Part shown: in pieces, positions 1-54,063 of the stretch
Layout of the letters: each line of letters starts with the position of its first letter
How positions within the stretch are numbered: position 1 is the stretch's first letter
Source of the DNA: Beroe forskalii
Taxonomy: Eukaryota; Ctenophora; Nuda; Beroida; Beroidae
DNA length: 64,000 nucleotides
Direction of reading: 5' to 3'
NCBI GenBank assembly: GCA_011033025.1
Contig: WFMF01000057.1
Location: 1 to 64,000, forward strand
Translations under genes and position numbers: made by a program
The notes under the pieces: generated by a model
Databases searched by the model: none
Told to the model about the DNA's origin: nothing
What the model saw: the letters and a program-made list of their open reading frames with translations, nothing else

Positions 1-166
1 TCTTATAGCTGATACTTAGATAGACAATCAAATTTGAGGATCATAGAATTCTAAATTCTTTTACACGAAGACATCAAGTTCCAGTCATTAACTGTTTGCC
101 TTATTTGCTGTCCACCCAAAAAAAACTAGTGTCTACAGTACTATCCAATATCTACTGCTTACCCAG

Positions 167-3100: not shown

Positions 3101-5009
3101 TGATATGGGCTCTGTCAGCCTCCAAATAGCCACCATATTAAAGCTTCAGCCTCCACGAAAATGTTATATTTCAGTTTCCGTGGAGGCTTAGCCTCCACTT
3201 AGCCTCCACTCACCCTCCATGGATGCTAATGGAGGTTAATTGTGGTCATGTTCCTGTGGTACCATTTTGTCGAAGACACGTTATCTAATGAACTGGTTAG
3301 AGATAAGTAGATAGAAGATACATGTCTATTGTCTGGGAATTATAAACATCTATTTTCTCGAACCAAGATGTTTCTGAAAATTTCTAAACCTGGTCTTTCA
3401 GCCACAGGATACCTTTTGAAAGGGGAAAGGTTAAGGTACAGATCGTAAAGCCTCCGAAGGAAGGTCTAAATGAAAAATTAATCATTGAAAATCGATTCAG
3501 CTTCTTAGAAAACTATTATGCACATTAGGGTGTAACAGAATTTCCGACTTTGTGCGCTCAATATGCTAGGGCACTTTCCATACAGCCTAGGGCATAAGAA
3601 AACCAAAATAAAGAATTTTTGGAAAAAATATTTTTTAAGGACTCGCCAGGAGGCAAAAACTTTGCCTGTTAATCAGCGCAAATTGCCCAGGTACTATAAC
3701 TTGGAAACTACTTGGTCTATGCCTCTTTTAGTCGTGTTCATCGTTTTCTACAGAGTAAGAAAACAGGTATAGGTCAAAGAATTATGCTTCTATCTCATTC
3801 AGGGGCTGAGATATGGCCGATTTCGTATGCCCTTATATGGTAAATGACCATATGGGCATACTCAACGCCTAATAACTTTTAACCAAAAGAGCAACGAAAT
3901 TTCTGCTTTTTTATCTAAGTCTGCCAAAGGCCTGTTTGCGGTGATCAGAATTGTTTTTTAAGTCATCAGAAGTGGCCAGGCAACATATGGCACCTTTGAT
4001 GACGTCACAATTACCATATTGCCATTCGGCCACTTCTGATGACTTAGAAACAATTCGATCACCAAACCGTGTTCTTTGGGTATGACTTAGTATACAAAAG
4101 CAAAAATTTCGTTGCTATCTCTTATGGTTAAAAAGTTATTAGGCGTTAGTTATGCCCATATGGTCATTTACCATATATGGGCATACGAAAATCGGCCATA
4201 TCAGCCCCTGAATGGATGGAAGCATAATTCTTTTGACGACAATTCTATTTTTTACTCAGAAAAATGATGAAATACGACGAGAAGACATAGACAAGTAGTT
4301 TCCAAGTTATAGCACGGCAATTTGCTTTATGATTAACAGGCAAAAAGTTTTTGCCTCCTGGCGAGTCCCAAAAATATTTTTCCAAAATTTTTGATTTTGT
4401 TTTCTATGCCTCTAGGCTGTATGAAATTAGGCATTTTTAGTGTCAAAGTCGGAAATTCTGTTACACCTAATGCACATGTCCTATGCACTGTGGACAACAA
4501 ATCAGAAATTTCAAAATTTTGAGTATTTTGGCAAACTTAAAATTTGTAACTTTGGCAATTATGGCAACTTTTAACACTTTTTTTTGGCAAACTCAAAAAA
4601 GTGGAAGTGTTTGCCAAAGTTTGCCAAAGTTTGTTCTGTAATTTCCCCCTATGTTTTAATATATGCAAATTAATTTAACCCATAATTTGGATATCTTTTT
4701 CATACATGAACTCTGATATCGCACTATGTTTGAGTAAAGGAATCTGTTTGTGATTTGAAGCCCCTTTCTCCATGTTCTAGTATTTCCCCTATAACATGTC
4801 CCCCCACAGGTCACACCCATGGAGGGCAGTTCTTCCCGTGTCACATCGTAGCCTACCTAACCAACCCTTTCTTCGCGGGTCTCTACAACCCTGCACCCGA
4901 CACTCATGTGTACGTGTCACGGGGTCTGAGGTTCTACGGGGCACCCATGAGGCTGCTCTCTAACACGGAGTACACTTCCGTTATACTCCACCCTAAAATA
5001 CCCGAATAG
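167..5009 (+). CDS. TMPPE: TMPPE-like metallophosphoesterase, last three coding exons
   Basis: Exons 167-329, 550-689 and 4810-5009 (stop TAG 5007-5009); earlier exons lie left of the window. The three join in one frame (167 codons with the stop) and read through GNHEYY, AGVDD, LAHQP and SGHTHGGQ. These are metal-binding blocks of calcineurin-like phosphoesterases, and the order and spacing match transmembrane protein with metallophosphoesterase domain (TMPPE, YkuE-type). The first exon's GNH, the AHQP histidine and the GHTH pair are expected metal ligands; the first Asp motif must lie upstream. In the family the catalytic domain follows N-terminal membrane helices, not seen here. The GHTH motif is split by a 4.1-kb intron (690-4809) full of repeats. 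The intron between exons one and two has a CT, not GT, at its 5' end (330-331). AATAAA at 5071-5076 is a likely poly(A) signal. Phosphatase substrate unknown. Family assignment is strong, the exact symbol fairly sure. Confidence 0.85.
780..935. repeat. TTGGCAAAC hairpin repeat, copy 1
   Basis: Several copies of TTTGGCAAAC on the plus strand are followed, after a T-run and A-run, by the complement GTTTGCCAAA. The whole can fold into a hairpin. A related copy lies at 4535-4640 in the same intron. Probably the ends or body of a small non-autonomous element. Confidence 0.6.
1263..3010. repeat. Strand-switching GGAGGCTGAGTGGAGCCTAGT minisatellite
   Basis: About 1.75 kb built from a degenerate unit of roughly 20 bases, GTGGAGGCTGAGTGGAGCCTA, mostly in plus orientation. 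Blocks of the reverse complement (CTAGGCTCCACTCAGCCTCC) occur near 1499-1590, 1755-1825, 1890-1935, 2005-2090, 2150-2215 and 2445-2535, with a small outlier near 3180-3225. It sits in the last intron of the phosphoesterase gene. Open frames inside it are by-products of the repeat. Confidence 0.9.
3526..4469. mobile_element. 944-bp hAT-like foldback element with 8-bp target duplication
   Basis: The ends are inverted: TAGGGTGTAACAGAATTTCC at the left, and at the right a sequence whose complement is TAGGTGTAACAGAATTTCCG. It is flanked by perfect 8-bp direct repeats ATGCACAT (3518-3525 and 4470-4477). The inverted similarity runs almost to the centre near 4000, where TGATGACGTCA occurs, so the whole element is one imperfect hairpin. 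There is no transposase frame. The 8-bp duplication and TAGGG-type ends suggest a non-autonomous hAT relative. Confidence 0.85.
4535..4640. repeat. TTGGCAAAC hairpin repeat, copy 2
   Basis: TTTTGGCAAACT, a T-run, then CAAAAAAGTGGAAGTGTTTGCCAAAG. The order of blocks matches the copy at 780-935. Confidence 0.55.
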
Positions 5010-6521
5010 ATTTAATTATGTGTTTTACCAATGTAGCTAAATGCTGTGTTCCGTAAAGTAGTTGTGTGGAAATAAAATGGAGTGGTGTGTACCAATGTGG
5101 AAGTTGAATTTTGGTTTCTGTCAGTACCCAGAGTCAACATTTTCTCAACAGCTGTGAACTACCGTACCACTTGCACTGTAACGTGTTTTCATTGATCATA
5201 TAGTCGATTCTGTGAGCAGTGCTTGTTAGAACTTAGAGTGTGCAAAGTGTTCATTTTGTTGTTAGTGTTTCGTACATACTGTGTGTTTATATTCGTATTT
5301 TGATATTTAATAGCACATGTAAATTGTGCGTTTAATATGTATGTTGCATAGTGTATACTTATGTATATTTGTGTTGTTTAGTGATTACTGCAGAGGTACC
5401 GATATCATACGTGTACTATTGCTGGTCAATATTGTATCATGGAACGTTGTGCCTTAAGGATTTAGTGCAGTGATTGGTGAATTGGAATTGATACAGTTCC
5501 TAATATTGAATTTGATAACTAAAGCTATTATGATTAAGTTACAAGTAATTAATACATTTCTCTTCCGGCATGAATACATTGGTATACATTGGAGTTTACA
5601 GTCCTTGCTAGATATTTTACAGCAGGACATAGATGATAATTTAATTGTAATTTCATGAAATTTACGTTTTGAGTAATTCACATAGTTTGAATAGTTGACT
5701 ATTGTAGTTGTTGGAAGATGTATACATTGTTTTGATGAATTATCAGTGCATAACCTGGGTAGTTTTGTCATAAGGTTACTTGGGTTAAGTTTATCATGTT
5801 TAATGTTAATTGATAATGCGCTGAGTTTTATTTTTTGACTTTTATTGATTTTGAGCACAAATGCAGACCAAAACAATTCAAACTTTGTTCGATACAAGAC
5901 ATTCTTAAATTTCGAAGTAACCTATAAAGTCTACTTAACCACTTAACATGAATCAAATAGCTGCCCAAATCACAATTATTCTTATTGCCTGTCAAGCTGT
6001 CACTAATTAAATTAACTATTTGAGTAGTGATGGCTATGTCAGGGTTGTCCTTTAGCCTGGTTCTGGTATGTGTCTGTAGTCTGGTTGTCCCTAATTAACT
6101 CCCCCATTCTGACTTTCATGTGGAAACAGACGTTAAGTGTTACAGTAGTGAGGACCATGATTGCAGTAGTGTGGTTAGTTCCTCTCACTGGAAACAGCAT
6201 TTCCTCCTCTACTTTCACATGAAGAATGTTAAAAGTTTTTATTTTGCTTTTTTCATCTGATTAAATCCCATTCGATAAAAAAGCATGATTTTACTGTAGT
6301 TTAGAAAAGTTTTTAATACATTATGCAGTATATACATCTGAGAAGTATAAAAATGTAAAAAGATTCGTGACTGGATCTGGCTATTTCTCAAAGTTCTCTG
6401 ATTTTCTGGAATGTGCTCGACTATCATACACATAATCTTAAATGCTTTTTCTAAAGATCTATCCTTTTTCTCGCGTATTTAACAGATTTTCCCGCTGCCT
6501 CATCACCCAAACGCCCTGCAG
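5010..6521. other. Intergenic DNA and unseen 5' part of the TMED gene
   Basis: AT-rich. It holds the phosphoesterase 3' UTR with AATAAA at 5071. The first TMED exon, which should encode the signal peptide and the start of the GOLD domain, must lie here or be missing from the assembly; I could not find it with confidence. Confidence 0.5.
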
Positions 6522-9500
6522 GTAAGTACAAGGTAGAGGTGTATGACGAGAAGACAGAGCAGTTCCAGAATAAGGACGGCATTGGAATGCACGTTGACAT
6601 CAAGGACCCTGACAGTAAGGTCATCCTGTCTAAGTACTACACCAACGAGGGCAAGTTCGTGTTTACCACGCACACCCCTGGCGAGCACTACATCTGTATC
6701 AGCCCTAACTCTACCCGTTGGTTCAGTGGCGGACTTAGACTGGTCAGTACTCAGTACACTTAGGTTGATTTAGTTATATGGTCGGAGTTGTTTCCCTTTT
6801 TTAGATTTTCCAAAAATCTTACAATCTTTTTTGCTTCACTCAACCCAATATCTATGGACTGTAAATATAGGCAAATATAAGTCTTTTGGTTCTCTCAATT
6901 TTCATCAGCGTCAACTAATCAGTTGTAATTTCAGCGTGTACATCTGAGTATCGATGTGGGTGAGCACGCTAACGACTACAAGCAAATCCAAGCTAAGGAG
7001 AAGCTGAGCGAGCTGCAACTCCGAGTCCGACAACTTCTGGAACAAGTGGAGCAAATCACGAAGGAACAAAACTACCAGAGGACCCGCGAGGTGACACCTG
7101 TGGCAATGGGATTTGTACCGTGAAATGGCGTTAGTTTGCGTATGGCGCCCAGTCATTGTTTTGAATAGAATTGCACGCACGAACAATAACGCGCGGTGTC
7201 GCTTTACGGATATTTGATCAAATTATTTGGATTACACGTCAACACTCAGCAATCGGCATGCATTGGTCGGCTAGAATTGCACTCCTTTTCTTCATGAGAG
7301 TATTTTTCATCATTATGGAAAAGATATAATGCTCAGATCATTACATCAATCACCCTTCCCATTTTTCCAACAGATTGTAGTAATTACGATATTGCACCGC
7401 TCATAGCCTCTGATTTTTGTGTGCTCAGGCACCAAACCCAACTAGAGGAGTAGCCCAAAGTTTACTGCTGGAAATTTTTGGTCAGCCCTTATGTTAACAA
7501 CAAATTTCAGACCTTTACCCCCGCTTTGGCTCAAATTATTTGTTAAACCTATTTCCCATTTTCCCATCGGCCATCAGTAAAACGAGATTGAGAAGAAGCA
7601 AAACAACAGTTTGAAGGAAAACTATACAGCGTAATTATCAAGCCATGTGCATGCGGTTATATGCGACTTGTGACCTCACGAAGTTAAGCATTCATAACAC
7701 TTAATCTTTGCTGATCCATCTGCAACCCTTGCCATACCCAACGCCTTAATTGTAACCTAACCATAACCCTAACCAATAACCCTTACCAATACCCATGTGT
7801 CGAGGTAAAATATAACAAGAAAAAGTGTTATGCGGTAAGGAAAAATTCCTTGATTCACGCTGGTATTTTGCACTGAACTTGTTCTTCAAAATGATCTGGA
7901 AACATGTCTTCAGTTATGCCAGTATCATATCCTTCATAGCCGAACATAAGGGCATCACCCTTTAGATAGTACATAACATATTCCTTCAACATCGGAGGAA
8001 TCCTAACCCACATTTCATCCACTTCTGCTTTACTTGCCACAGCCTCCTGCGTGCTTTGGATGCTTGGTAAGTCAATCTCTAGATTTAGTTTTTCTCTGAG
8101 AAAACTATAATCACTGTCCATAGTTTCTAGGGTTCCAATGAAGTCGTACTTTTCCCGACAATGATCACACAAACTTAACATGCTCACAAAATGGGTATTG
8201 ACAATTGTATCCCTGAGATTTTCACTGCCATAGTCTTGCGGCATGAATATCTGAAGAACCAGCAGCATGCCGAGTGAAATGCGATCGTCTTGTCCCTCAA
8301 CATTGCAGTTCTCCTCAAGTTCACCCGAGATGTAGGAGTATATCTCGTCAGGAACCAGATACTCATCCGGTTTTTCGGTTACCAGTCGTTGTAGAGCTCC
8401 GCACGCTTCCTTACTGCGCGATGTGCGGTATATCCGGAACGCTTCCTGTGTGGAATTCCCAGTGAACTTGTCTCTGTACGCTGACAACAATCGTGAAAGA
8501 GGGTCCCTTACAAAGGTTATCCGGTAGTATTCCTCTGTTATTTGCCTCCCAAGTTCGTCGTACCCGCGTTCCTTCACACGAGTTAGAGTTCCGTTATCTC
8601 TCCAGAATTCAGGCTTGTTCGGGTTCGCTAAGACTTCAGCTTCCTCTGGTGTGATGACCCCTCGTAGCAGTAAGAGCAATGTCCGCCAGTTAGAAGATCC
8701 TGCTTTACCAACAGTACAAATCAAGAATTTCTTGCTGGAGAGGAGCAACATTCGGTTAGCGACTGGCCGCGTTTTGTAGGTGCACGGAATTCGGGAAGCG
8801 TGCATCTTGCATCTTTCTGCGACCAACTCAGCTCTTTGTTCGCCAGTCAGGGAACTAGGACTATGCTTATCTTCCTGCTGTTGAGGCTTTGCAGATTGCT
8901 GCTGTGACTGTTCAAGCTGAGCTCCTGAGAAATCCTTTCTTGCAATAGAAAGTCTCTGCATATCCACAAGGCGCGGGAATAGCCAAAACCATGTAAGCAA
9001 AACAACAATGAGGATGAAAGAAAACAATGTCAATTTGTTAAGCCTACGAAGTGGCCTCATCTTTTTGAAATTTTACTGAAGCTGCAGACTTTTCACGGAA
9101 AACTAGACAAATATAACGGCCTATTATCGAGTTTGTGAGTGTAAGACGCTACTCTGGAATATTAATGAGAACATGGCCACACGTAACAAAGTGAGGACTA
9201 GAGCAAGTTGTGTAAAGTTAGTGAAAACAACCCGAGCATTGTTCAATGTTAAGTGACAAGTGATAATATACGTTTGTAATAATCAATGGAAATCGGTGTA
9301 GGTTAATGAAGAATGAGGAATTAAAATAACCTTGGCAATAGCTAAAAAATTTACATATATTGGTATATTGTCTAATTAAAAAATTAATATTATTGAGATT
9401 TAATAGAGTATTAAGATCTTCCACATAGAAAAGTCTTGTTTAGCATGTCATCAGCATTAATTATCAGAATTGAATGGTTCACACTTCTTCAAAGATATTT

Positions 9501-11122
9501 ATGGAAGGAGAATGGAACTTAGTGAAATGATGGATCTCTGCGAGGCTACTGTTCGTGTGACGTGTGTGTTCTCCTAAAAACAATTGCAACTTCCATCGCA
9601 CTACCCCATCTCATCCTTGAAGCCTTGATTTTGAGCTCCTAATCTATTATTATAATCGAGAGAGGTAGTTATAAGTAGGAGCCTCCGCTCTCCCAGAAAA
9701 TCTGACAAACTAGGAGTTGAAAAACCGCGATTTTTTGCAGGGTGGTAGAAAAAGGTGTCTTCGTATTGCTACATTCTTCTTTTTGAGTAAAGGCTTTAGA
9801 TTTTTTTTTTTTTTTTTTGTGGTTAACGCTCAAAGTTGGAAAAAGGGTCGCGAGAAAAATGATCGAGTTTTAGATTTGATTCACCAGTTGAGCGCGTTGC
9901 TATGGATACATGTTTAGCGCGCGCAAAACTGCACGTGCATTTTCACGAAGAATCTGCCATTTCGTTGTTGTATATTTTGGAAACGTTTCCACTGTTGAAA
10001 TTCATAATTTATACGTTCCCAATAGAATTTTCGAGTTCGGTAAAAAGTTTTTAACCGAAGACTAACTTATCACCGTCGTAGGAGAAATGGTAAGAGTTGT
10101 TCCATTATGAAAATTAGCGGTAATTCTTTCAAGAAAACAATTCGATGGTTTGCTGCGAGAATTCGACGGAATGATGAATTCAATTATTTACTGAAGCTAG
10201 AAGTGGGTTATGAAAAGATAAAAATGCAAACAATTTTGATTTTAATGAGCTCGGATTCAAATTTGTTGCCCATCTATTCTCTAATCTGAACTTAAGATTA
10301 AAAAACATTATTTTTGAGTTCTTCTTATTTAACAGCTGTTTGTTCCGAGGGTTGATATGCAATCGTAAAATTTGGTCTATATTTTCATTTATTTTCAAAG
10401 CCCTTATGTGAATATTTCGTAATTTCGTTACGTTGCACCCCCACCCCAGTAACAAAAAATTGCATCAATGACTAACTTAGTGTAAGATATCACATTTGAC
10501 ACTTCCAAACTTAAAAACTGCAATTGTTCATTTTATTCCAATTTCATACGTTTCAATTGTTTTGTCATTAATTTTCATAATTCAATATTATTATTTATTA
10601 AACTTGCGTTGTGGCTCATGAATTTTGAAAATACTGCGTACTTTAATGTCCATTTTTTCAATTTTTCAAGTCTAAGAAACCAGGGTCCTGACTAGGGCAA
10701 TTATATGCTGGCATGGTGGTGCCCTGTAGCCAGCATTGAAAGGGTCGGGTGTCCTGTGACCCAGAAGGCCCAACGGGCCTTCTAGTATAATTTTTAATCA
10801 AAAAGGGAAGGACGTACTCCGATTTTACCCCCCTGCCCCTTGTTATGAAGTTTACATTAGTTGTAATTTTTTTACCATAACTTTACAATAATATACAATA
10901 TATAATTGATATATTTTCCGACCCTTCCCATAACTCGCCTCATCAACTGTTTGTAACCCTTTGACCCAGCGGACCCGCGAGGAAAGATTCCGTTTCACCT
11001 CCGACACTACCAACAACCGAGTGTTGTGGTGGGCTGTGGCCCAAACCACCATCCTGCTCCTCGTGGGGGCGTGGCAGATGCGCCATCTCAAGGGATTCTT
11101 TGAGGCTAAGAAGCTCGTGTAA
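6522..11122 (+). CDS. p24 family cargo receptor, TMED4/9-like (alpha subfamily), partial
   Basis: Exons 6522-6742, 6935-7090 and 10982-11122 (stop TAA 11120-11122) join in frame; the first exon with signal peptide is not identified. The protein reads [10 protein letters not shown], then [13 protein letters not shown] and HTPGEHYIC (GOLD domain), [15 protein letters not shown], a coiled-coil rich in L, Q and E ([19 protein letters not shown]), NYQR, a membrane helix ([16 protein letters not shown]) and the tail [13 protein letters not shown]. The FF motif and the KKxx-type C-terminus are the known COPII-export and COPI-retrieval signals of p24 alpha proteins, which cycle between ER and Golgi. 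The third visible intron (7091-10981) contains a sulfotransferase gene on the other strand and a Helitron. A second, nucleotide-identical copy of the last exon lies at 14112-14252. The last intron is bordered by the 11-bp repeat GGACCCGCGAG. Confidence 0.9.
7091..7854. other. TMED intron, no gene; degenerate CCCTAA stretch
   Basis: No coding signal. The right part (about 7730-7800) holds CCTAACCATAACCCTAACC-type degenerate telomere-like repeats at the start of the duplicated block; the same stretch recurs near 12000. Confidence 0.5.
7855..9060 (-). CDS. Golgi carbohydrate sulfotransferase (CHST8-14/HNK-1 family), copy A
   Basis: A single-exon gene of 401 residues. Residues 1-9 are basic, 10-29 form a membrane anchor ([16 protein letters not shown]), followed by a Q/S-rich stem to about 75 and a catalytic domain: a type II Golgi enzyme. 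The two PAPS-binding motifs are visible: the 5'-phosphosulfate loop around 114-127 ([14 protein letters not shown], with the GKAGSSN core) and the 3'-phosphate motif at 182-196 ([15 protein letters not shown]). These, and FLRDP/SAYRDKF-like wording, place it in the Sulfotransfer_2 family that sulfates chondroitin, dermatan or HNK-1 glycans. NGT (156) and NST (202) are possible N-glycosylation sites. It lies inside a TMED intron, antisense to it. I count about 18 amino-acid differences from copy B (about 95% identical), with no broken frame, so both probably work. Acceptor sugar not predictable. Confidence 0.9.
   Translation of the reverse strand: MRPLRRLNKLTLFSFILIVVLLTWFWLFPRLVDMQRLSIARKDFSGAQLEQSQQQSAKPQQQEDKHSPSSLTGEQRAELVAERCKMHASRIPCTYKTRPVANRMLLLSSKKFLICTVGKAGSSNWRTLLLLLRGVITPEEAEVLANPNKPEFWRDNGTLTRVKERGYDELGRQITEEYYRITFVRDPLSRLLSAYRDKFTGNSTQEAFRIYRTSRSKEACGALQRLVTEKPDEYLVPDEIYSYISGELEENCNVEGQDDRISLGMLLVLQIFMPQDYGSENLRDTIVNTHFVSMLSLCDHCREKYDFIGTLETMDSDYSFLREKLNLEIDLPSIQSTQEAVASKAEVDEMWVRIPPMLKEYVMYYLKGDALMFGYEGYDTGITEDMFPDHFEEQVQCKIPA
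9061..9642. other. Upstream region of sulfotransferase A
   Basis: AT-rich, no gene. It matches 13323-13911 closely with small indels, so any promoter of the sulfotransferases is duplicated too. Confidence 0.5.
9643..10785 (+). mobile_element. Non-autonomous Helitron, 1,143 bp
   Basis: It starts TCTATTATTATAATCGAGAG and ends with a hairpin (AGAAGGCCC, loop AAC, GGGCCTTCT; 10763-10783) whose last two bases begin the terminal CTAG (10782-10785). It sits between A (9642) and T (10786) without target duplication, as Helitrons do. The second copy of the duplicated block has the uninterrupted site TCTTAATATAATTTTT at 13907-13922. No Rep or helicase frame is present, so it was moved by another element. 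Confidence 0.92.
10982..11122 (+). other. TMED last exon, copy 1
   Basis: Encodes [19 protein letters not shown] followed by the rest of the membrane helix and KKLV. It is identical to copy 2 (14112-14252), and the identity runs on about 200 bases into the 3' UTR. A second acceptor (CAG at 10967-10969) would add RTRE in frame. Confidence 0.85.
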
Positions 11123-12116
11123 AGTGGAACTCCTACTCCCCTCTATGTCGTATGCTTTTTACATTTTATTACCCTCCTCTTTTCCGTTTGGATAGCAGTC
11201 CAGAAGAACTGGAACGGCGATTACTGATGAGTATTATAATTTCTATCTTTGTAATTTAGTAGCGGATGTGGACTCAATTCTAATTATTTTATTTCATACC
11301 GAAAAGTTTCAAGTTTGTATAAAAATTCACAATTCCCTCGGTACTTCACAAAACTAGGCCGCTTATTGGCAAATCATATTCTATATCAATACTTGAACTG
11401 TTTGCTGGCCGAACAGGCGTTAACAAATAACAATATTCCACAACATTCAAGTTATAGGAAAAATCCTTATTGTCCATCTCTCATGTAAGGTATCTAGAAA
11501 TGATGTATTTCCTTCGTAATTATGTTCTTTTTCATATGCAAGTAAGTTTTAACTACGAAGGCTTATATCTCTGCAGCACAATAGTTTTTGCAAATATTTT
11601 TTTGTGACCTATAATAAATTCCTCTTGTTATAATGATAAGCAAAACCATCTGCTTATGTTCCTGTTATAATGTAACATCACGCCAAACACAATGAGATTA
11701 GTTTATTAATGTTTAGTTGATACGGATTTATAATGAAAGTTACATATTTGAATGCTTACACTTGCGTGGGTTGTTTTAACTTGCTCAAATTACTAATATC
11801 TATACAATCTAAGAATCCCAAGAATAAATTTGCCAAAAAACCAAATTTAATACTGATTACCTTGATGACTACTAAGTTTCAGCAAAAATCATTCCTAGTT
11901 TTTGAATCTAAAGATGTAATAGACGTATTTAATTGGTGACAGTTTTTGAGTTCGTCGAACTTAAGATTCAACACTTCATCTTTGATGATCCTACTGCAAC
12001 TCTTGCCATACCCAACGCCTTAGTTGTAACCTAACCATAACCCTAACCGATAACCCATATGTCGAGGCAAAATATAACAAGGAAAAGTGTTATGCGGTAA
12101 GGAAAAATTCCTTGAT
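11123..12116. other. TMED copy-1 3' flank and start of unit 2
   Basis: AT-rich with no gene. The first 200 or so bases match the 3' flank of copy 2. CCCTAACC-like repeats appear at 12000-12055, at the start of the second unit. Confidence 0.5.
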
Positions 12117-13322
12117 TCACGCTGGTATTTTGCACTGAACTTGTTCTTCAAAATGATCTGGAAACATGTCTTCAGTTATGCCAGTATCATATCCTTCATA
12201 GCCGAACATAAGGGCATCACCCTTTAGATAGTACATAACATATTCCTTCAACATCGGAGGAATACTAACCCACATTTCATCCACTTCTGCTTTACTTGCC
12301 ACAGCCTCCTGCGTGCTTTGGATGCTTGGCAAGTCAATCTCTAGATTTAGTTTTTCTCTGAGAAAACTATAATCACTGTCCATAGTTTCTAGGGTTCCAA
12401 TGAAGTCGTACTTTTCCCGACAATGATCACATAAACTTAACATACTCAAAAAATGGGTATTGACAATTGTATCCCTGAGATTTGCACTGCCATAATCTTG
12501 CGGCATGAATATCTGAAGAACCAGCAGCATGCCGAGTGAAATGCGATCATCTTGTCCCTCAACACTGCAGTTCTCCTCGATCTCATTCGAGATGTAGGAG
12601 TATATCTCGTCAGGTACGATATACTCATCCGGTTTTTCGGTTACCAGTCGTTGTAGAGCTCCGCACGCTTCCTTACTGCGCGATGTCCGGTATATCCGGA
12701 ACGCTTCCTGTGTGGAATTCCCGGTGAATTTGTCTCTGTACGCTGACAACAATCGTGAAAGAGGGTCCCTTACAAAGGTTATCCGGTAGTATTCTTCTGT
12801 TATTTGCCTCGAAAGTTCATCGTACCCGCGTTCCTTCACTCGAGTAAGAGTTCCGTTATCTCTCCAGAATTCAGGCTTGTTCGGGTTCGCTAAAACTTCA
12901 GCTTCGTCTGGTGTGATGACCCCTCGTAGCAGTAAGAGCAATGTCCGCCAGTTAGATGACCCTGCTTTACCAACGGTGCAAATCAAGAATTTCTTGCTGG
13001 GGAGGAGCAACATTCGGTTAGCGGGTGGCCGCGTTTTGTAAGTGCACGGAATACGGGAAGCGTGAATCTTGCATCTTTCTGCAACCAACTCAGCTCTTTC
13101 TTCGCCATTCAGGGAACTAGGACTATGCTTATCTTCCTGCTGTCGAGGCTTTGCAGATTGCCGCTGTGACTGTTCAAGTTGAGCTCCTGAGAAATCCTTT
13201 CTTGCAATAGAAAGTCTCTGCATATCCACAAGGCGCGGGAATAGCCAAAACCATGTCAGCAAAACGACAATGAGGATGAAAGAAATCATTGTCAATTTGT
13301 TAAGCCTACGCAGTGGCCTCAT
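12117..13322 (-). CDS. Golgi carbohydrate sulfotransferase (CHST8-14/HNK-1 family), copy B
   Basis: 401 residues, single exon, with the same layout as copy A: N-terminal membrane anchor (10-29), stem, PAPS 5' motif at 114-127 and 3' motif at 182-196, all unchanged. Differences from copy A cluster in the anchor and stem (residues 12, 13, 54, 60, 72, 75, 87, 100, 108) and at 235-254 (loop [19 protein letters not shown] versus [19 protein letters not shown]), with single changes elsewhere (139, 171, 280, 293, 353). The catalytic core is conserved, which suggests purifying selection after the duplication. The 235-254 changes could alter acceptor preference; that is inference. It lies antisense inside the extended TMED transcription unit, between the two last exons. 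Confidence 0.9.
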   Translation of the reverse strand: MRPLRRLNKLTMISFILIVVLLTWFWLFPRLVDMQRLSIARKDFSGAQLEQSQRQSAKPRQQEDKHSPSSLNGEERAELVAERCKIHASRIPCTYKTRPPANRMLLLPSKKFLICTVGKAGSSNWRTLLLLLRGVITPDEAEVLANPNKPEFWRDNGTLTRVKERGYDELSRQITEEYYRITFVRDPLSRLLSAYRDKFTGNSTQEAFRIYRTSRSKEACGALQRLVTEKPDEYIVPDEIYSYISNEIEENCSVEGQDDRISLGMLLVLQIFMPQDYGSANLRDTIVNTHFLSMLSLCDHCREKYDFIGTLETMDSDYSFLREKLNLEIDLPSIQSTQEAVASKAEVDEMWVSIPPMLKEYVMYYLKGDALMFGYEGYDTGITEDMFPDHFEEQVQCKIPA

Positions 13323-14111
13323 CTTCTTGAAATTTTACTGGAGCTGCAGACTTTTCACGGAAAACTAGACAAATATAACGGCCTATAATCGAGTTTGTGA
13401 GTGTAAGACGCTACTCTGGAATATTAATGAGAACATGGCCACACGTAACAAAGTGAGGACTAGAGCAAGTTGTGTAAAGTAAGTGAAAACAACCCGAGCA
13501 TTGTTCAATGTTAAGTGTCAAGTGATAATATACGCTCGTAATAATCAATTGAGTTCAGTGTAGGGTAATGAATAATGAGGAATTAAAATAACCTTGGCAA
13601 TAGCTTAGAAATTTACATATATTGGTATATTGTCTAATTAAAAAATTAATATTATTGAGATTTAATAGTGTATTAAGATCTTCCACATAGAAAAGTCTTG
13701 TTTTGTTAGCATGTCATCAGCATTAATTATCAGAATTGAATGGTTCACATTTCTTCAAAGATATTTAGGAGAATGTTAATACTTTGATAAGTGAAATGAT
13801 GGATCTCTGCGAGGTTACTGTTCGTGCGACGTGTGTGTTCTCCTAAAATCAATTGCAACTACCATCGCACTACCCCATCTCATCCTTGAAACCTTGATTT
13901 TGGGCTCTTAATATAATTTTTAATCAAGAAGGGAAGGAAGAACTCCGATTTTACCCCCCCCCCCCTCCCCCTTGTTATGAAGTTTACATCAGTTGTAATT
14001 TTGTTACCGTAATATTACAATAATATGCTATACATTTGATATAATTTCCGACCTTTCCCATAACTCGCCTCATTTACTGTTTGTAACCCTACGACCCAGC
14101 GGACCCGCGAG

Positions 14112-23019: not shown

Positions 23020-23547
23020 CTGTAAAGCCACATATTTTCGCGGGTGCTATTTTTCGCGTTTCTTTAAAATCAGACTAATTTCACGGTTTTAATTTTCACG
23101 CATTTCAATATCCCTTGATATGAAGATAAACCAGTGCTTGTACGTGGTCATTTAACATTTTCGCTAATTGCTGTAAACCTTGATGGCCGGTGATTGTATA
23201 AAGGCAAAAGCCCGGTTTAATGAGGTGTCTTGTTCGTCTATGTTTACTTAAGTGTGTCTGTCAGACATTATAGCATGTCATTTGTAAACGATACTGAGAT
23301 CTTAGTTGAGGGCTTAATGTTTCTAATGACACACTTTGGGTTGAAAAATAATGCCTTGATGACAAACCAATCTATCGAATACTTAAGAGGGAATACTTAA
23401 CGGCAAATGAATTGGACTCGAAAAACGCAGATATATAAATTTATCTCCAAAATTGAAAATCAACTTCACGTCTGATATTTTCGCGGATTTTCTTTTCCAA
23501 ATAAATTCGCGAAAATTAATGCCTCGCGAAAATTAATGGCTTTACAG
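23020..23547. mobile_element. CTGTAAAGCCA MITE, TA target
   Basis: Ends CTGTAAAGCCACATATTTTC and the inverted GAAAATTAATGGCTTTACAG, flanked by TA on each side. CGCG-rich AT blocks (TTTTCGCG) recur inside. No coding frame. The pattern fits a Tc1/mariner-type MITE, but the family is not certain. Confidence 0.75.
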
Positions 23548-23550
23548 TAA

Positions 23551-23775
23551 CCCCGGCTGAGTGACGTCACAGACCTGAAGGTCAATTTTTCTGTATCCTA
23601 AACCTAACCATGACCCTAACCAAAACCCTAACTTTAATCCTAACCCTAACCCTAACAAATCCTGACCCTAATCGTGACCCTAACCCAAGTCCTTAAAGCG
23701 CTAGGTGCGCTTAACTATATTTTTCTGACTGACGTCATTATCATAGATAATGAAGAGCATAGAGTTATATGGGAC
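23551..23775. mobile_element. Telomere-like MITE, truncated copy
   Basis: GGCTGAGTGACGTCACAGA, then CCTAACC-type repeats, AAAGCGCTAGGTGCGCTTAA and TGACGTCATTATCATAGATA: the internal order of the 249-bp family, with the outermost terminal bases missing or diverged. Confidence 0.75.
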
Positions 23776-24229: not shown

Positions 24230-24441
24230 GGACACAAAAAAAAATAAGTCGAAAAAAATAAGCTGAAAAAAATAACTCGAAAAAAATAACTCGAAAAAAA
24301 TAACTCGAAAAAAATAACTCGAAAAAAATAAATCGAAAAAAATAACTTGAAAAAAATAACTCGAAAAAAAAAACTCGAAAAAAATAACTCGAAAAAAATA
24401 AGTTGAAAAAAATAAATCGAAAAAAACTCGAAAAAAAAAAA
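24230..24441. repeat. AAAAAAATAACTCG array, left arm
   Basis: About sixteen units of 12-14 bases. The F/Y/I-rich open frames on the minus strand are artefacts of this array. Confidence 0.9.
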
Positions 24442-24616
24442 TAAATTCACAGTTCACAGTTCAGTATGGGATTGGGAGACTTGCCACACACACACCTATG
24501 CGGGCTTACTCTTAGGAAATGGGAGACTCGCTTGCTAAACACGTATACCCCTGTTCGCATTTTGCTAAACACGTATATCCCTGTGTGGCACACACCTATG
24601 CGGGCTTAAGAAGTTC

Positions 24617-24865
24617 GGTATCTCTCCCATGTAAACGGGGCTGAGTGACGTCACAGATCTAAAGGTCAATTTTTCTGTATCCTAAACCTAACTGTGACCC
24701 TAACCAAAACCCTAACCTTGATCCTTACCCTGAACCTAACAAATCCTGACCCTAACCAAAACCCTAACTCTATCCTCTAAAGCGCTAGATGCGCTTAATT
24801 ATATTTTTCTGAGTGACGTCATTGTCATAGACAATGAAGGCTCCCGTTTACATGGGAGACGTACC
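24617..24865. mobile_element. Telomere-like MITE, intact 249-bp copy
   Basis: Terminal inverted ends GGTATCTCTCCCATGTAAAC and the complement of GGTACGTCTCCCATGTAAAC, with perfect 8-bp target duplication AGAAGTTC (24609-24616, 24866-24873). Inside are GTGACGTCAC near one end, TGACGTCA near the other, and a central run of degenerate CCCTAA units. The length is exactly that of the copy at 47601. Confidence 0.92.
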
Positions 24866-25264
24866 AGAAGTTCGCATTGAGCACGGGAAGCTTCCCCGTA
24901 GGAAAGCGCTGCGCGCGTACGCACACCTATGTGGGCTTCGGAAAGATTGTCGTACGTTGTATGACCCGCAGACTTCACCAAACCAGGTGCTAAGTGCTAA
25001 CGCCGATCGGCCGCGTGCGCCGCGCGCAGAAGAGGATTATCTTGTTTGAGTAAGTCGCTGACGCCAGTGCGGCGCTGATTCTCACGAGTCTATCATCGGC
25101 CGAGAAAAGAACAAACGACGGCGCACTGGCGCAGTTCAAACATGCACGCGGCGCAGAATAGGGCGCTTGTTAAGAAAAACATCACTCAGAAACACTATAA
25201 ACTTAAGGGCCTCTTTTTCTGACATTGCCCGCGCCCGCCGAAGGCTAAGGGGTCAGACAACGTC

Positions 25265-25710
25265 TGACAAAAAAAACAAGTTGAAAAAAATAAGTCGAAA
25301 AAATAAGTCGAAAAAAATAACTCGAAAAAATAACTCGAAAAAAATAACTCGAAAAAAATAAGTCGAAAAAAATAACTCGAAAAAAATAACTCGAAAAATA
25401 ACTCGAAAAAAATAACTCGAAAAAAATAACTCGAAAAAAATAACTCGAAAAAATAACTCGAAAAAAATAACTCGAAAAAAATAAGTCGAAAAAAATAACT
25501 CGAAAAAAATAAATCGAAAAAAATAAGTCGAAAAAAATAAGTCGAAAAAAATAAGTCGAAAAAAATAAATCGAAAAAAATAAATCGAAAAAATAAATCGA
25601 AAAAAATATATCGAAAAAAATATATCGAAAAAATAACTCGAAAAAAATAACTCGAATAAAATAACTCGAATAAAATTAAAATAAATCGGAAAAAATAAAG
25701 CGAAAAAAAG
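25265..25710. repeat. AAAAAAATAACTCG array, central
   Basis: About 33 units, the longest array of this type in the window, directly after the palindrome GTCAGACAACGTCTGAC. Confidence 0.9.
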
Positions 25711-25794: not shown

Positions 25795-26600
25795 GCACAT
25801 ATCACCAATGGCGCCATAGGTGCCAATGGTGCCACTAAATGGCACCAATGCACAATGGATATCCATTGGTACCAATGGTGATTGCTGAAATGGCACCAAT
25901 GGTGCACCCTATCTCCATTGGTACCATTGGCGCCATTGGGTATCTCTCCAATAAATAAATGGCGTCAAGACTAAACGTCAATTTTTCTGTATCCTAAACC
26001 GGCACAATGGTGCCATTAATCCTAACCCTGAATTTAAATGGACCATTGGAACCCTAACCAATGGCGCTAGGTGCGCTTAATTATAATGTGCGCAAATGGT
26101 ATAGTATAATGAAATCCCACCATTGGTACCCGCCATTCACCAATGGCATCATTGTGTCTCCCATGTGCGGGAGCCTTCATTATCTATGACAATGACGTCA
26201 TCAGAAAAATATAATTAAGCGCACCTGTCGACGCACGGTGCAGGTTCTGATTTGATTTGTTAGGTTCAGGGACTAGGGATTAAGGTTTGGTTTTAGTGAG
26301 GGCGTCCAAATACAGAAAAATTGACGTTTAGATCTGTGACGTCACTCAGAGCCGTTTATATGGGAGAGATACCCATTGTCGCGGTCGCCAATGGCACCAT
26401 TGGTGCCATTGGTGCTTCTACCCTCAAATGGTGATATCGACTTTAGTATATCGCTTCTTAATGGTGCCATTGGCTCCATTTAATTATTTAAATGGTACCA
26501 TTGGCATCCAATGGCCATCGCCAATGGTACCAATGGAAATAAGGTGCACCATTGGTTCCATTTCAGCAATCACCATTGGTACAAATTTAAAAGAAGCGCT
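25795..26600. repeat. CCATTGG/CCAATGG palindromic satellite with MITE pieces
   Basis: Repeats of GGTGCCATTGGTGCCATT and its complement, rich in ATTGG/CCAAT. Between about 25975 and 26100, pieces of the telomere-like MITE and of the satellite alternate every 15-30 bases. A reverse-orientation MITE copy occupies about 26160-26371. Confidence 0.85.
26160..26371. mobile_element. Telomere-like MITE, reverse copy
   Basis: GTCTCCCATGTGCGGGAGCC, ATGACGTCAT, AGCGCACC, TTAGG-like units, GTGACGTCAC, then CCGTTTATATGGGAGAGATACC. Shortened and diverged in the middle. Confidence 0.8.
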
Positions 26601-26904: not shown

Positions 26905-27075
26905 CTGAGAATTTTTTTAGAGTTATTTTTTTCGATTTATTTTTTTCAACTTATTTTTTTCGAGTTATTTTTTTCGAGTTATTTTTTCGACTTATTTTTT
27001 TCGAGTTATTTTTTTCAAGTTATTTTTTTTCGATTTATTTTTTTCAACTTATTTTTTTCGACTTATTTTTTTTGT
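26905..27075. repeat. AAAAAAATAACTCG array, right arm (complement)
   Basis: The inverted counterpart of 24230-24441, about twelve units. Confidence 0.9.
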
Positions 27076-27352: not shown

Positions 27353-27697
27353 GGTCTCCCATATAAACGGAAGCCTTCATTACACATTATCTATGACAAT
27401 GACGTCGTAGGATGTTACCCTACCCTCGCGCGCGGCGCAACGTTCCACATTTGGACGTCACTTTGCAACCTCGCCATCCAGTCAGAAGAAATAGACGGGG
27501 CAACGTCCGTCGACAATGACGTCACTCAAAAAATACAATTAAAGCGCACCTAGCGCTTTAAGGACTAAAAGCGCTTTAGGGTCAGGATTTGTTAGGGTTT
27601 TGGTTAGGGCTATGGTTAGGGTTTTGGTTAGGGCTATGGTTAGGTTTAGGATACAGAAAAATTGACGTTTAGATCTGTGACGTCACTCAGAGCCGTT
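27353..27697. mobile_element. Telomere-like MITE, reverse copy hit by another MITE
   Basis: It begins GTCTCCCATATAAACGGAAG and runs to CTCAGAGCCGTTT, with TTAGGG-like units (GGTTAGGGTTTTGGTTAGGG) in the middle. A 109-bp element (27405-27513) sits in its CAATGACGTCA site. Confidence 0.85.
27405..27513. mobile_element. TCG...CGA MITE, nested copy
   Basis: Starts TCGTAGGATGTTACCC, ends GGGGCAACGTCCGTCGA. The ends are imperfect inverted repeats (TCGnnGGAnGTTnCCC). An 8-bp target duplication CAATGACG (27397-27404, 27514-27521) interrupts the MITE at 27353. Confidence 0.88.
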
Positions 27698-27704
27698 TTG
27701 TCAG

Positions 27705-27834: not shown

Positions 27835-28350
27835 ACGTTGTCTGACCTTCCTAAGCCCGCATAGTTGCCCTAACCAGGGCCCTGGTTACGCGCACAGAGT
27901 GCGCGGCGCGGCAAGCGCTAAACCCCTGGTTAGGGGAACCCGCATAGGTGTGCGTACGCGCGCCGCGCTACCCTGAGGAAGCGCGCCGCGCAACGCAGCA
28001 ATGTCATGTCTGACCCCTTCGCGCCTTCGGCCGTTTATATGGGAGACATACCTGTAAAAGAGTGTTGATCACCAAAACATTTCCCCTAACCAGGGGTGTC
28101 GTCGCGTCGCGCGCTTCCCCTAACCAGGGGTGCCGCGCCGCGCACTCCGTGCGCGTAACCAGGGTCCTGGTTAGGGCAATTGCGTGCTTAAAACTAGTGA
28201 TCTGGTGAGAGCAACAAAATATTGATCACCAAAATATTGATTTTATTTCAATCATTCAATTTTTCCTAAGCCCGCAAAGGTGTGTGTGCGCGCGCGGCGC
28301 TTCCCTTCTGAGGAAGCGCGCCGCGCAACGCAGACAGGGATATACGTGTT
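27835..28350. repeat. GC-rich mosaic of CCCTAACCAGG and GCGCGC repeats
   Basis: Modules CCCTAACCAGGGTCCTGGTTAGGG (palindromic), GCGCGCTTCC, TAAGCCCGCATAGGTGTG and TATACGTGTTTAGCAA recur here, at 24480-24610, near 26750-26880 and at 47100-47600, in different orders and orientations. Confidence 0.75.
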
Positions 28351-32935: not shown

Positions 32936-33221
32936 GTCATACGACCTGCGCTTTATCATATTTTTCTGAGTGACGTCATTGTTATAGATAATGAAGGCTC
33001 CTGTTTATATGGGAGACCGACCAACTTTTGCGCCATTTAAATGGCGCCATTGGTACCATCGGTGCCAATGTCAGTGTCACCATTGGTGTCATTTTAATAG
33101 CGCCTTTGGCGTCAATGATGCCACGCACCCACGCCCCTCTATGGCAATTTAAATCAAAATGGCGCCATTGATACCATCGGTGCCATTCTCCTCGGTGACA
33201 TTCTCCTTTAATGGCGATCAC

Positions 33222-33424: not shown

Positions 33425-33879
33425 CATTGGATGCCGATGGTATCATTTAAATGGCGCCATTAAGAAGCGATACTACTGTAAGTGTAAAATTACCATTAGA
33501 GGGGCGTGGTGCCAAATCCAATGGCGCCAATGTTACCATCAGTGCCAATGCTCCAATGGCACCATTGTTACCATTGGTATCATTTGGTGCCATTCTTAGC
33601 TTATGGCGCAATTGGAATCATTGGTGCCATTTAAATGATACCATTGGCATCCAATGGTGATCGCCAATGGTTCCAAAGGCGATAGGGTGCACCAATGTGC
33701 CATTTCAGCCATCACCATTGGCACCAATGGTGCCATGATTGGTGATATGTGCTATTTGTGCTACCCGGGATGACACTTTCACCCAAAACGCTGATCCTAA
33801 ACTCTCAAAAGCGCTAGACGCGGTTAAATGTATATTTCTGAGTGACGGAATTGTCATTATAGTTATACTTATAGATAAC

Positions 33880-43144: not shown

Positions 43145-43672
43145 AATTAATAACATCCTAATAAGGCATTAAGTAATATAATCCTAATAACAAGTTATCA
43201 TTGACATTAATTAATAATACCCTAATAAGGTAGTATCATTAAGTTATCTCACCCTTATAAGGTAGTATTATCAACTAATCACACCCTAATAAGGTAGTAT
43301 TATTAACTAATCACACCCTTATAAGGTAGTATTATCAACTTATCACACCCTTATAAGGTATATTATTAACTAATCACACCCTAATAAGGTAGTATTATTA
43401 ACTAATCACACCCTAATAAGGTATATTATTAACTAATCACACCCTAATAAGGTAGTATTATTAACTTATCACACCCTAATAAGGTATATTATTAACTAAT
43501 CACACCCTAATAAGGTAGTATTATCAACTTATCACACCCTAATAAGGTATATTATTAACTAATCACACCCTAATAAGGTATATTATTAACTAATCACACC
43601 CTTATAAGGTAGTATTATCAACTTATCACACCCTAATAAGGTATATTATTAACTAATCACACCCTAATAAGG
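43145..43672. repeat. About 31-bp tandem repeat (ACACCCTAATAAGGTA)
   Basis: About seventeen copies of TCACACCCTAATAAGGTAGT followed by ATTATTAACTAA, in two length variants (GGTAGTATTATT and GGTATATTATT) that alternate. The array ends 19 bases before the peroxiredoxin exon 5 donor, so it lies in the next intron of that minus-strand gene. Confidence 0.95.
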
Positions 43673-43690
43673 TAATGGGTTTTGGTTTAC

Positions 43691-47066: not shown

Positions 47067-47600
47067 CGCGCGTTGATTCTCATTATTCATTAGCTGACCA
47101 CGGATCAGACAGCGGATTTGCTAAACAATTATATCCCTGTTATCGTCGCGCGGCGAGCTTCCCGTAGTTGCCAGGCGTTGCCTGGCCCCCTCGCGCGCGC
47201 GCCCCGTCTGGCAATCCCGTAGGGAACTAGAGGAAGCGCCGCGCGCGTACATGACACATACCTATGCGGGCTTAGGAAACAGCAGATGATATTATTACAA
47301 TTGACAATACGACAACATGAGCGAAAAATTACATTTAACTACTGCAAATAGCATCATGACATTTGTCGATTATTAAAGCCCACATAGGTAAACAAAGAAG
47401 TTAGGTAACGGGGGTATAGTGGTAAACGTGTTTAGCAACGCGTCGCTCGGAAGGGTTTATCAATGATAAACAAGCCTTCGTCTGAACTCGAGCTTGCGCG
47501 CGCAAAATAGGTTTTATAAAGTACTTAAAGTAGGTCAACTACGTTTTCCCCTAACCAAGGGTGTCGTCTGGAGCAAGGCGCGGGGCGGGCATAAAACTAG
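47067..47600. repeat. Mosaic of GC-rich repeat modules
   Basis: TTTGCTAAACAATTATATCC, GCGCGCGCCCCGTCTGGCAA, TATGCGGGCTTAGGAA, GTGTTTAGCAACGC and CCCCTAACCAAGGGTGTCGT: the same modules as at 24480-24610 and 27835-28350, in another order. Confidence 0.7.
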
Positions 47601-47849
47601 GGTACGTCTCCCATGTAAACGGGAGCCTTCATTATCTATGACAATGACGTCACTCAGAAAAATATAATTAAGCGCACCTAGCGCTTTAAGCATTAGGGTT
47701 AGGGTTCTGATTAGGGTCAGGATTTGTTAGGTTCAGGGTTAGGAGTAAGGTTAGGGTTTTGGTTAGGGCAATGGTTAGGTTTAGGATACAGAAAAATTGA
47801 CGTTTAGATCTGTGACGTCACTCAGAGCCGTTTATATGGGAGAGATACC
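47601..47849. mobile_element. Telomere-like MITE, intact 249-bp copy (reverse)
   Basis: GGTACGTCTCCCATGTAAAC to the complement of GGTATCTCTCCCATATAAAC, with perfect 8-bp duplication AAAACTAG (47593-47600, 47850-47857). The interior has GACGTCAC on both sides of a run of TTAGGG-like units (ATTAGGGTTAGGGTTCTG, AAGGTTAGGGTTTTGG). It is inserted in another repeat whose uninterrupted relative (AAAACTAGTGATCTGGTGAG) is at 28190. Confidence 0.93.
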
Positions 47850-47857
47850 AAAACTAG

Positions 47858-51829: not shown

Positions 51830-51835
51830 TTATGA

Positions 51836-54048
51836 AGCCCCCATTTCACGCAGGCTCTCGCATATCAAGCAAAATTATAGCATACGTAGATATTTAAATG
51901 CATTCTAAGAAAAATTATTGCATGGTTAGGCATTATTGCATCTTAAATCAAATGAACGCAATAATCTTTCTTACAATGCAATCATATCACTGTATTTTTA
52001 TTGCCTCACTATCGAAATTATTGCATCTTTTTGTGATCTTCAGTACCTCAGGGAATATAAATGCATTGTTAGAGATATTATTGCACAAGGAAGTAGATAA
52101 CGACTTGATGCCATAATTATTGCATTGTAGCGTGGATTATTGCAAATGAATGGAGCTATATATAATCCTTCCCCTTGCGATTATAAATGCATTGTTAGAA
52201 ATATTATTGCACTAGGAAGTAGATTACAACTTGATGCCATAATTATTGCATTGTAGTGTGGATTATTGCAAATGGATGGAGCTATGTATAATCCTTCCCC
52301 TTGCAATTATAAATGCATTGTTAGAGATATTATTGCACTAGGAAGTCGATCAAGTAGAGTAAATTATAGCATTCAGACCTAAACAGCAATAGAGCAATGA
52401 AAGGCATTTATATCATATCATAACATTATGTGTTAATTAGATTACACACATACACTCGTCACTCAAACATGAGTCCTGTTGTTCTGCTGAGAGGCGAGAG
52501 CCAGATACTTTATATCATCCAAACGTATTTTACAGGAAACTTGAAAGCATTGGGTGATTTGTTAATGAATATTGAATGTTCACAAAATCAGAACAAATGA
52601 AGATGTTGGTTTGAAATTAAAATAAAATCAATGTTACATTATACGATGTGTAATGTGTATATAGCTTTCAGGTAATTGTATCAAATATAGGTATATTATA
52701 ATCAAGATACAGCTTTAGTAACCAGTAGAAGGTATTAAGCTGGGTACCTACCGACCAAGCAATACTCAAAACTCGTTGTGCCATAATAATTTACTATGCA
52801 CGGGCAACAGTGCGTAATAAATTGTTATGAACGGTATATTAGAGTATTAACAATGACGATCTAACGGTATAATAATGACTATCTATAGGAATTTTGAAGA
52901 CACTGCATAAATCTGCCTAGAAGGTAAATAATATGTTGTTATGTTACACACTATTGAGGTGTGGATTGGTGAATATTCCTCGAGAGGCGAAGCTGAGAAT
53001 ATGGGAAACTAATAACCGATATCCGTGTGTAGTAACACTATTATTTAACGATCCGAAAAAGTATGAGGCTGCTCCGTAAACTGGATTTCAAACTCGGCGA
53101 ACGGGCTGTGAGTTAAATAATAAGGTATGATAAATTATAAGCAGTATGTATATTATGATATGATCAACTTTAAAACAGACGCATTTAAGTTGTATAAAGT
53201 TGTATCTTTGATTTATAATATACCTATTTGATACAATTACCTGAAAGCTATATACATTGTTACACATCGTATAATGTAACATTGATTTTATTTTAATTTC
53301 AAACCAACATCTTCATTTGTTCTGATTTGGTGAACATTCAATATTCATTAATAACAAATCACCCAATGCTTTCAAGTTTCCTGTAAAATACGTTTGGATG
53401 AAATAAAGTATCTGGCTCTCGCCTCTCAGCAGAACAACAGGACTCATGTTTGAGTGACGAGTGTATGTGTGTAATCTAATTAACACATACTCTATTGCTG
53501 TTTAGGTCTGAATGCTATAATTTACTCTACTTGATCTTCTTCCTAGTGCAATAATATCTCTAACAATGCATTTATAATTGCAAGGGGAAAGATTATATAT
53601 AGCTCCATCCATTTGCAATAATCCACACTACAATGCAATAATTATGGCATCAAGTTGTAATCTACTTCCTAGTGCAATAATATTTCTAACAATGCATTTA
53701 TAATCGCAAGGGGAAGGATTATATATAGCTCCATTCATTTGCAATAATCCACGCTACAATGCAATAATTATGGCATCAAGTCGTTATCTACTTCCTTGTG
53801 CAATAATATCTCTAACAATGCATTTATATTCCCTGAGGTACTGAAGATCACAAAAAGATGCAATAATTTCGATAGTGAGGCAATAAAAATACAGTGATAT
53901 GATTGCATTGTAAGAAAGATTATTGCGTTCATTTGATTTAAGATGCAATAATGCCTAACCATGCAATAATTTTTCTTAGAATGCATTTAAATATATACGT
54001 ATGCTATAATTTTGCTTGATATGCGAGAGCCTGCGTGAAATGGGGGCT
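51836..54048. mobile_element. 2.2-kb inverted-repeat element with 6-bp target duplication
   Basis: Two arms of about 870 bases (51836 to about 52710 and about 53195 to 54048) are near-perfect inverted copies around a spacer of about 0.5 kb. The ends read AGCCCCCATTTCACGCAGGC. Flanking direct repeat TTATGA (51830-51835, 54049-54054). Each arm contains a subrepeat of about 120 bases, repeated about three times (ATAATTATTGCATTGTAGCG, TCCTTCCCCTTGCGATTATA). The mirror-image 72-codon frames at 51898 and 53768 are a result of the inverted arms and have no motif. No transposase. Confidence 0.85.
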
Positions 54049-54063
54049 TTATGATATAGATAC

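Follow-up and report, generated by a model that had tools for sequence, protein, structure and literature searches.

A dispersed non-coding MITE with a telomere-like core shares its ends with two long foldback families in Beroe forskalii

The 64,000-nucleotide stretch of DNA analysed here (the window; positions 1-64000 of contig C658 in a 216-Mb assembly of 1134 contigs) contains two intact copies of a 249-bp sequence with a telomere-like centre and TGACGTCA palindromes towards its ends. This raises the questions of whether the sequence is a mobile element, what type of transposase may move it, and whether it spreads telomeric DNA and regulatory sites. A first-pass annotation of the window had called it a MITE with two intact copies flanked by perfect, differing 8-bp target duplications. 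Both copies are present at 249 bp each, with the duplications AGAAGTTC and AAAACTAG, respectively (Table 1), and contain four and five exact CCCTAA/TTAGGG units. Eleven of the thirteen TGACGTCA palindromes in the window fall inside MITE copies. The damaged and partial copies listed by the annotation were all recovered by local BLAST, which also detected an isolated end at 28030-28052 and an additional match at 33783-33857. Arrays built from a 14-bp AAAAAAATAACTCG unit (window 24238-24437, 25270-25676 and 26911-27072) alternate with the MITE copies, the third array being inverted. Elsewhere in the window, genes match the Pfam sulfotransferase family, SKA1, autophagy conjugation-enzyme domain and AMP-binding enzyme entries, a set that points to an animal-like eukaryote. 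A direct duplication with 94% identity (7679-9661 and 11956-13929) includes a 405-aa open frame in each duplicate, the first of which has the sulfotransferase-family match while that of the second reads nearly alike. The window furthermore includes an inverted repeat of ~0.9 kb whose arms (51832-52717 and 53195-54052; 94% identity) each enclose a 126-bp tandem repeat, and an RVT_1 reverse transcriptase reading frame (56004-57350), which is probably derived from a non-LTR retrotransposon.

Table 1. Coordinates of the MITE copies and their parts in the window, and of the four long foldback elements within their own loci
Feature	Position	Strand	Remarks
Intact 249-bp MITE copy 1	24617..24865	+	CCCTAA-strand orientation
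Copy 1, 8-bp target duplication AGAAGTTC	left 24609..24616, right 24866-24873	.	perfect
Copy 1, TGACGTCA sites	24646..24653 (near left end) and 24814-24821	.	
Copy 1, degenerate CCCTAA core	24680..24775 (limits approximate)	+	6-bp phase in family consensus
Intact 249-bp MITE copy 2	47601..47849	-	reverse orientation
Copy 2, 8-bp target duplication AAAACTAG	left 47593..47600, right 47850-47857	.	perfect
Copy 2, TGACGTCA sites	47645..47652 and 47813-47820	.	
Copy 2, 37-bp end	47813..47849	-	94.6-97.3% identity to those of two foldback elements, 5.1-5.3 kb in length
Damaged copy, both outer ends gone	23547..23755	+	query 15-223, BLAST
Left-end fragment	25939..26000	+	query 1-72, BLAST; another fragment at 26064-26085
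Diverged copy, nearly complete	26156..26373	-	query 1-244, BLAST
Damaged copy, two pieces (27354-27406 and 27512-27698)	27354..27698	-	BLAST
Isolated end fragment	28030..28052	-	copy 2 query 227-249, oriented as copy 2, BLAST
Right-end fragment	32947..33017	+	query 174-244, BLAST
Internal/right fragment	33783..33857	+	query 140-212, BLAST
Foldback element L053, first long family	4243-9513 (5271 bp)		exact 8-bp duplication, MITE-type ends
Foldback element L054, first long family	4451-9584 (5134 bp)		exact 8-bp duplication, MITE-type ends
Foldback element L059, second long family	19-4853 (4835 bp)		exact 8-bp duplication; L059 and L060 are the elements on C427 and C503
Foldback element L060, second long family	21-4665 (4645 bp)		exact 8-bp duplication; see L059 for contigs

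Using the inner 14 bp of the ends, facing each other across a span of 223-252 bp, 554 places could be distinguished in the 216-Mb genome, with none for a control pattern. As this pattern is self-complementary and each listed place turns up on both strands, the 554 matches per strand correspond to 554 places. Exact matches to the 20-bp end number 579 on one strand of the genome and 613 on the other (reversed control, 0), and genome searches with the window copies gave 49 and 51 matching stretches among the best 40 of 2035 and the best 40 of 1978 candidates, respectively. The MITE is present in at least several hundred copies. Complete copies, with ends of at most four mismatches placed 181-499 bp apart and no third end between them, were collected from the window and loci L002-L060 (excluding L009, which repeats the window). 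These number fifty-eight, with thirty-nine in best-match loci, three in the window and sixteen in regions reached by the end motif only. Forty-six of the fifty-eight are exactly 249 bp in length. Their 8-bp duplications are exact in 41/58 copies and differ by at most one mismatch in 49/58, while left and right flanks taken from different copies gave 0/3306 exact matches and 10/3306 with at most one mismatch. An exact flanking repeat was found at 24/38 loci measured for length, and its longest extent was 8 bp in all twenty-four. One stretch counted among the fifty-eight (window 25939-26373) resolves by BLAST into two fragments and lacks a duplication. Median divergence from the consensus is 0.8% across the fifty-eight copies, a value which understates the age of the family as thirty-nine of them come from loci picked as best matches. 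The fifty listed of the 554 paired-end places are spread over many contigs, and nested or head-to-tail clusters also exist (for example C278:40604-41359, C1091:236696-237428 and C492:773794-774641). A satellite could be ruled out, as the copies are dispersed and have differing duplications. None of the contrary outcomes named in the first-pass annotation (copies without duplications, TTAGGG units in a minority of copies, or a single local satellite) occurred, with duplications being common, units present in most copies read and the copies dispersed. Inverted ends, 8-bp duplications, the 249-bp size and dispersal all agree with the MITE call: the element is shorter than 500 bp and homogeneous in size, has inverted terminal repeats and differing duplications of fixed length, and occurs in hundreds of dispersed copies. 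At 249 bp it is too short for a transposase gene, and the element is a dispersed, non-coding MITE.

The ends of the MITE start with GGTA. A ~37-bp end, in which TGACGTCA occupies positions 30-37, delimits three kinds of element that differ in their repeat cores, namely the MITE and two families of long elements, and the ends of the tested MITEs and long elements are 86-100% identical by BLAST. Four long elements of 4.6-5.3 kb, belonging to the two families, were read whole (L053 and L054 having been found among twenty regions read around end matches), and all four have the common ends and exact 8-bp duplications. The inverted arms of L059 and L060 consist of a 32/64-bp repeat. GGAAC words occupy the left arm and GTTCC words the right arm of all four elements, with the exception, in three of them, of the single bin, out of eight, in which the turning point falls. 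With long inverted tandem-repeat arms and a target duplication, all four are of the Foldback type, and neither TTAGGG nor CCCTAA occurs in any of them. The two end regions of the MITE diverge from one another inside about 24 bp, whereas the long elements are symmetric, and recognition by the transposase may depend on the outer ~20 bp alone. Both TGACGTCA sites of the MITE consensus lie inside a directly repeated 13-mer, CTGAGTGACGTCA, which is found twice in direct orientation in 50/58 copies, in contrast to the inverted arrangement in the long elements. The genome listing of the 37-bp end without a following C comprises 90 places, of which 53 have the variant of the second long family, 26 have the first variant followed by T and 11 are of the A/G types. 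One of the 26 (on C321) is a MITE, and ten of the eleven A/G-type ends were read, all of which continue as the MITE or a diverged version of it. A following C or T was found at thirteen ends, those on C278 and C296 coinciding with MITE matches. A search with the end of the second long family gave matches of 95-100% identity among the best 40 of 268 candidates, plus one short piece. Short samples inside the C261, C158, C373, C489, C727, C442 and C307 pairs consist of array DNA, except for one of two C158 samples, and the 15-kb C158 pair may thus not be one element.

At least three exact CCCTAA units are found in 56/58 copies and at least four in 51/58 (range 1-6), with at least three also in 15/16 copies reached by the end motif only. 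The five or more units annotated for every fuller copy hold when degenerate units are counted. None of 2000 dinucleotide shuffles of the whole copy matched the exact-unit count of either intact window copy. When the 105-bp core of copy 1 was shuffled alone, 4/2000 matched its four exact units, and the 6-bp phase is therefore the stronger evidence. Consensus units with at most one mismatch lie at 64, 70, 82, 94, 100, 106, 112 and 118, all eight in one 6-bp phase, while three more at 134, 146 and 152 share a second phase, a pattern that is well explained by a decayed hexamer array and one indel. As the core keeps this phase, its probable ancestor is a hexamer array that had already decayed when amplification set in, and the decayed state of the consensus itself indicates that much of the decay came first. 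Conservation within the MITE is lowest in the core (identity 0.891, compared to 0.94-0.99 elsewhere, in 16 copies), and hence there is no sign that the hexamers are kept for function. An origin by chance, or by slippage of a simple repeat unrelated to telomeric DNA, would fit the degeneracy of the units, the presence of CCCTAA in an unrelated 32-bp array of the window and the fact that TTAGGG is no more than presumed to be the telomere repeat of this genome. We nevertheless consider it unlikely, given that eleven units hold two 6-bp phases in the consensus and that all units of the fifty-eight copies lie on one strand, with opposite-strand units in 0/58. The 32-bp tandem array (43206-43674) includes CACACCCTAATAAGG and CCCTAA words, is not telomere-like and lacks MITE ends.

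The TGACGTCA palindromes had been annotated as a CRE-type site towards each end. The palindrome is real and kept, with two sites in 52/58 copies, one in five and three in one. It appears very unlikely that the MITE spreads these pairs as genuine regulatory sites for bZIP/CREB proteins. The frequency of two perfect palindromes per copy speaks for this role, as does the left site, which is among the better-kept 8-mers (17/242 rank higher in 16 copies). The second site, however, is not unusually conserved (79/242 rank higher in the same number of copies), and transposase recognition would explain why TGACGTCA occupies the corresponding position at the ends of the two foldback families. Since TGACGTCA sits in an end common to two other families, recognition is the simpler reading of its role, and the palindrome seems to belong to a recognition end that the families share.

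Target sites, ends and domain matches bear on the choice of superfamily. Members of the hAT superfamily insert at nTnnnnAn or nnnTAnnn targets, have ends of the CAG/TAG type and make duplications of fixed length, typically 8 bp, while MULE duplications range from 8 to 11 bp and are usually 9 bp. A hAT origin with a hAT partner in the genome, as first proposed, finds agreement in the fixed 8-bp length and in 23 hAT-dimer matches in the genome. Its signature is nonetheless missing from the exact duplications of complete copies, with T2/A7 in 0/41 and TA at positions 4-5 in 0/41. Composition alone predicts ~3.8/41 for T2/A7 (chance of none, 0.018), and hAT should give an excess. Furthermore, the ends start with GGTA rather than CAG/TAG, and none of the 23 matches lies within 20 kb of the elements listed (including 100 of 1192 exact ends; by eye). 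It is thus very unlikely that the element is a hAT MITE mobilised by a hAT transposase of this genome. The duplications are somewhat rich in A at positions 2-4 (20-22 of 41), and a palindromic target preference could be rejected, with 1.05 complementary pairs of four per duplication against 1.05 expected. By analogy with the Tetris and Tm1 elements, the tentative first choice is a Mutator-like (MULE/Phantom) transposase. The genome has 46 MULE domain matches, several in open frames of more than 400 aa. Among the elements listed, only those on C160 (~4 kb) and C296 (~3.5 kb) have such a match within 5 kb (by eye), the former end belonging to a truncated MITE and the latter to a MITE match (C296:187877-188117). 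A rough calculation with 1192 exact ends per 216 Mb suggests that both cases could be due to chance. Duplications of 8 bp are, moreover, short for this superfamily when compared to Tm1 (mostly 9 bp) and Tetris (8-10 bp). Possibly, the ends instead belong to another superfamily with 8-bp duplications, such as P/Galileo, KDZ/Zisupton, Merlin or an undescribed one. Both the duplication length and the foldback forms of the P superfamily are consistent with this, Galileo being described in two papers as a member of the P superfamily whose long inverted repeats are themselves internally repetitive (PMC3573991, PMC4168063). Matches to the P-type RNase H (PF21787) and KDZ (PF18758) domains number zero in this genome, a point that weighs little against P and KDZ as the control genomes likewise have none. 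No autonomous partner with these ends was found among the end-motif elements read. In the four long elements, the reading frames give repeat-like translations without a transposase (by eye), and loci L001-L058 hold 79 frames of at least 110 aa that are not simple repeats, the 45 longest of which show no transposase in their first 60 residues (by eye).

Interstitial telomeric repeats are often ascribed to chromosome fusion. Insertion at repaired breaks has also been invoked, in the sections available of PMC2246262 and PMC8537989. Break repair could be rejected for the cores described here, which sit inside elements with ends, 41/58 of them with exact 8-bp duplications. The proposal that the MITE seeds interstitial telomeric tracts applies to short, degenerate tracts, which it does spread, but is not supported for perfect ones: no MITE copy (0/58) has three or more perfect tandem units, and on contigs C1-C161, for which the list of exact ends is complete, none of the six (TTAGGG)4 clusters (C1, two on C44, C66, C111 and C154) has an exact MITE end within 20 kb. 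Perfect (TTAGGG)4 has 400 and 182 occurrences in the genome, overlaps counted. Of seven perfect tracts read, three (C376, C312 and C242) were picked for matches on both strands, which favours palindromes, and four (C228, C44, C66 and C1) were not. Five of the seven belong to a second palindromic repeat (L081-L085; C376, C312, C242, C228 and C44), including two of the four not picked for palindromy (L084 and L085). Four of these stretches (L082-L085) have the CCTAAATTGG-type flank of this repeat, which has one arm of TTAGGG and one of CCCTAA, while L081 has the common inner sequence. The arms meet at GGTTAACC in three of the five stretches, and the repeat near C44 lies amid GGCGCCTATA palindromes. 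The remaining tracts comprise a TTAGGG/TTTGGG mixture (L087) and a different sequence (L086). A second repeat family, and not this MITE, thus carries several of the perfect tracts read. The 12-mer TTCCACATTTGG is found, with at most one mismatch, at window positions 26718, 27443, 27745, 33375 and 61525, three of these inside a longer GCGCAACGTTCCACATTTGGACGTCACTTTGC, and also in two stretches of the second palindromic telomeric family. With 554 paired-end places and at least three exact units in 56/58 copies, telomeric tracts in such genomes should be classified according to transposon ends before being interpreted as scars of fusion.

Taken as a whole, the observations are best explained by a non-autonomous cut-and-paste MITE that depends on a transposase acting in trans, which recognises the ~37-bp, TGACGTCA-terminated end and makes 8-bp staggered cuts, and we consider this account likely. 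As no element with both these ends and a transposase was found, we infer movement in trans as well as the superfamily. The same enzyme would also move the two 4.6-5.3 kb foldback families. The MITE presumably originated as an internally deleted derivative that acquired a one-directional array of telomere-type hexamers; this array would have decayed before copies of the family reached hundreds of sites. A more speculative extension, which we regard as doubtful, is that the end is a general carrier of tandem repeats. Breaks inside the element during failed transposition or gap repair would have been filled with repeats, once by telomerase or telomeric DNA to give the MITE core and twice by the growth of foldback arrays, and telomere-type DNA would then have been spread by cut-and-paste. 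Different repeat cores under one end constitute a natural experiment on the gain of tandem repeats by non-autonomous transposons, which also bears on how such transposons become sources of satellites.

The closest published cases are Tetris/DAIBAM and Tm1, as described in the accessible parts of the respective papers. Tetris/DAIBAM of the Drosophila virilis group likewise pairs a tandem-repeat foldback element with a MITE of common terminal sequence; its autonomous partner was not found, according to the parts available, and its authors suggest the Mutator superfamily (PMC4079207). Its duplications of 8-10 bp are a further similarity. It differs in having arms built of one repeat type (about 220 bp), while two array families and a hexamer core occur here, under ends with TGACGTCA (PMC4079207). 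Tm1, a Mutator/Foldback element of root-knot nematodes, resembles the present system in its composite, repeat-bearing inverted repeats and in having MITE-like and larger members with common ends, and 45/53 of its complete elements have duplications of 8-10 bp (PMC3169594). Some Tm1 members encode a Phantom-type transposase, whereas none was found with a transposase here, and the Tm1 duplications are mostly 9 bp, compared to 8 bp at the 24 length-measured loci (PMC3169594). The CMITE elements of Acropora corals are also animal MITEs that form tandem arrays, but differ, in the portions available, in their TTAA duplications, link to piggyBac and conserved internal region, and the word stem 'telomer' is absent from the text of the paper (PMC2872659). 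In the literature searched, judged by titles and abstract openings, there is no telomere-cored MITE or transposon, and the search with the MITE end sequence gave no relevant publication. Xenopus MITEs with internal tandem repeats also spread an array, but have other ends and another target site, and to our knowledge that array is not of the telomere type. What is new here is that two foldback families, which differ in their arrays, have a single end in common with a MITE that has a telomere-like core, and this shared-end pattern is a variant of the published one rather than a new kind of system.
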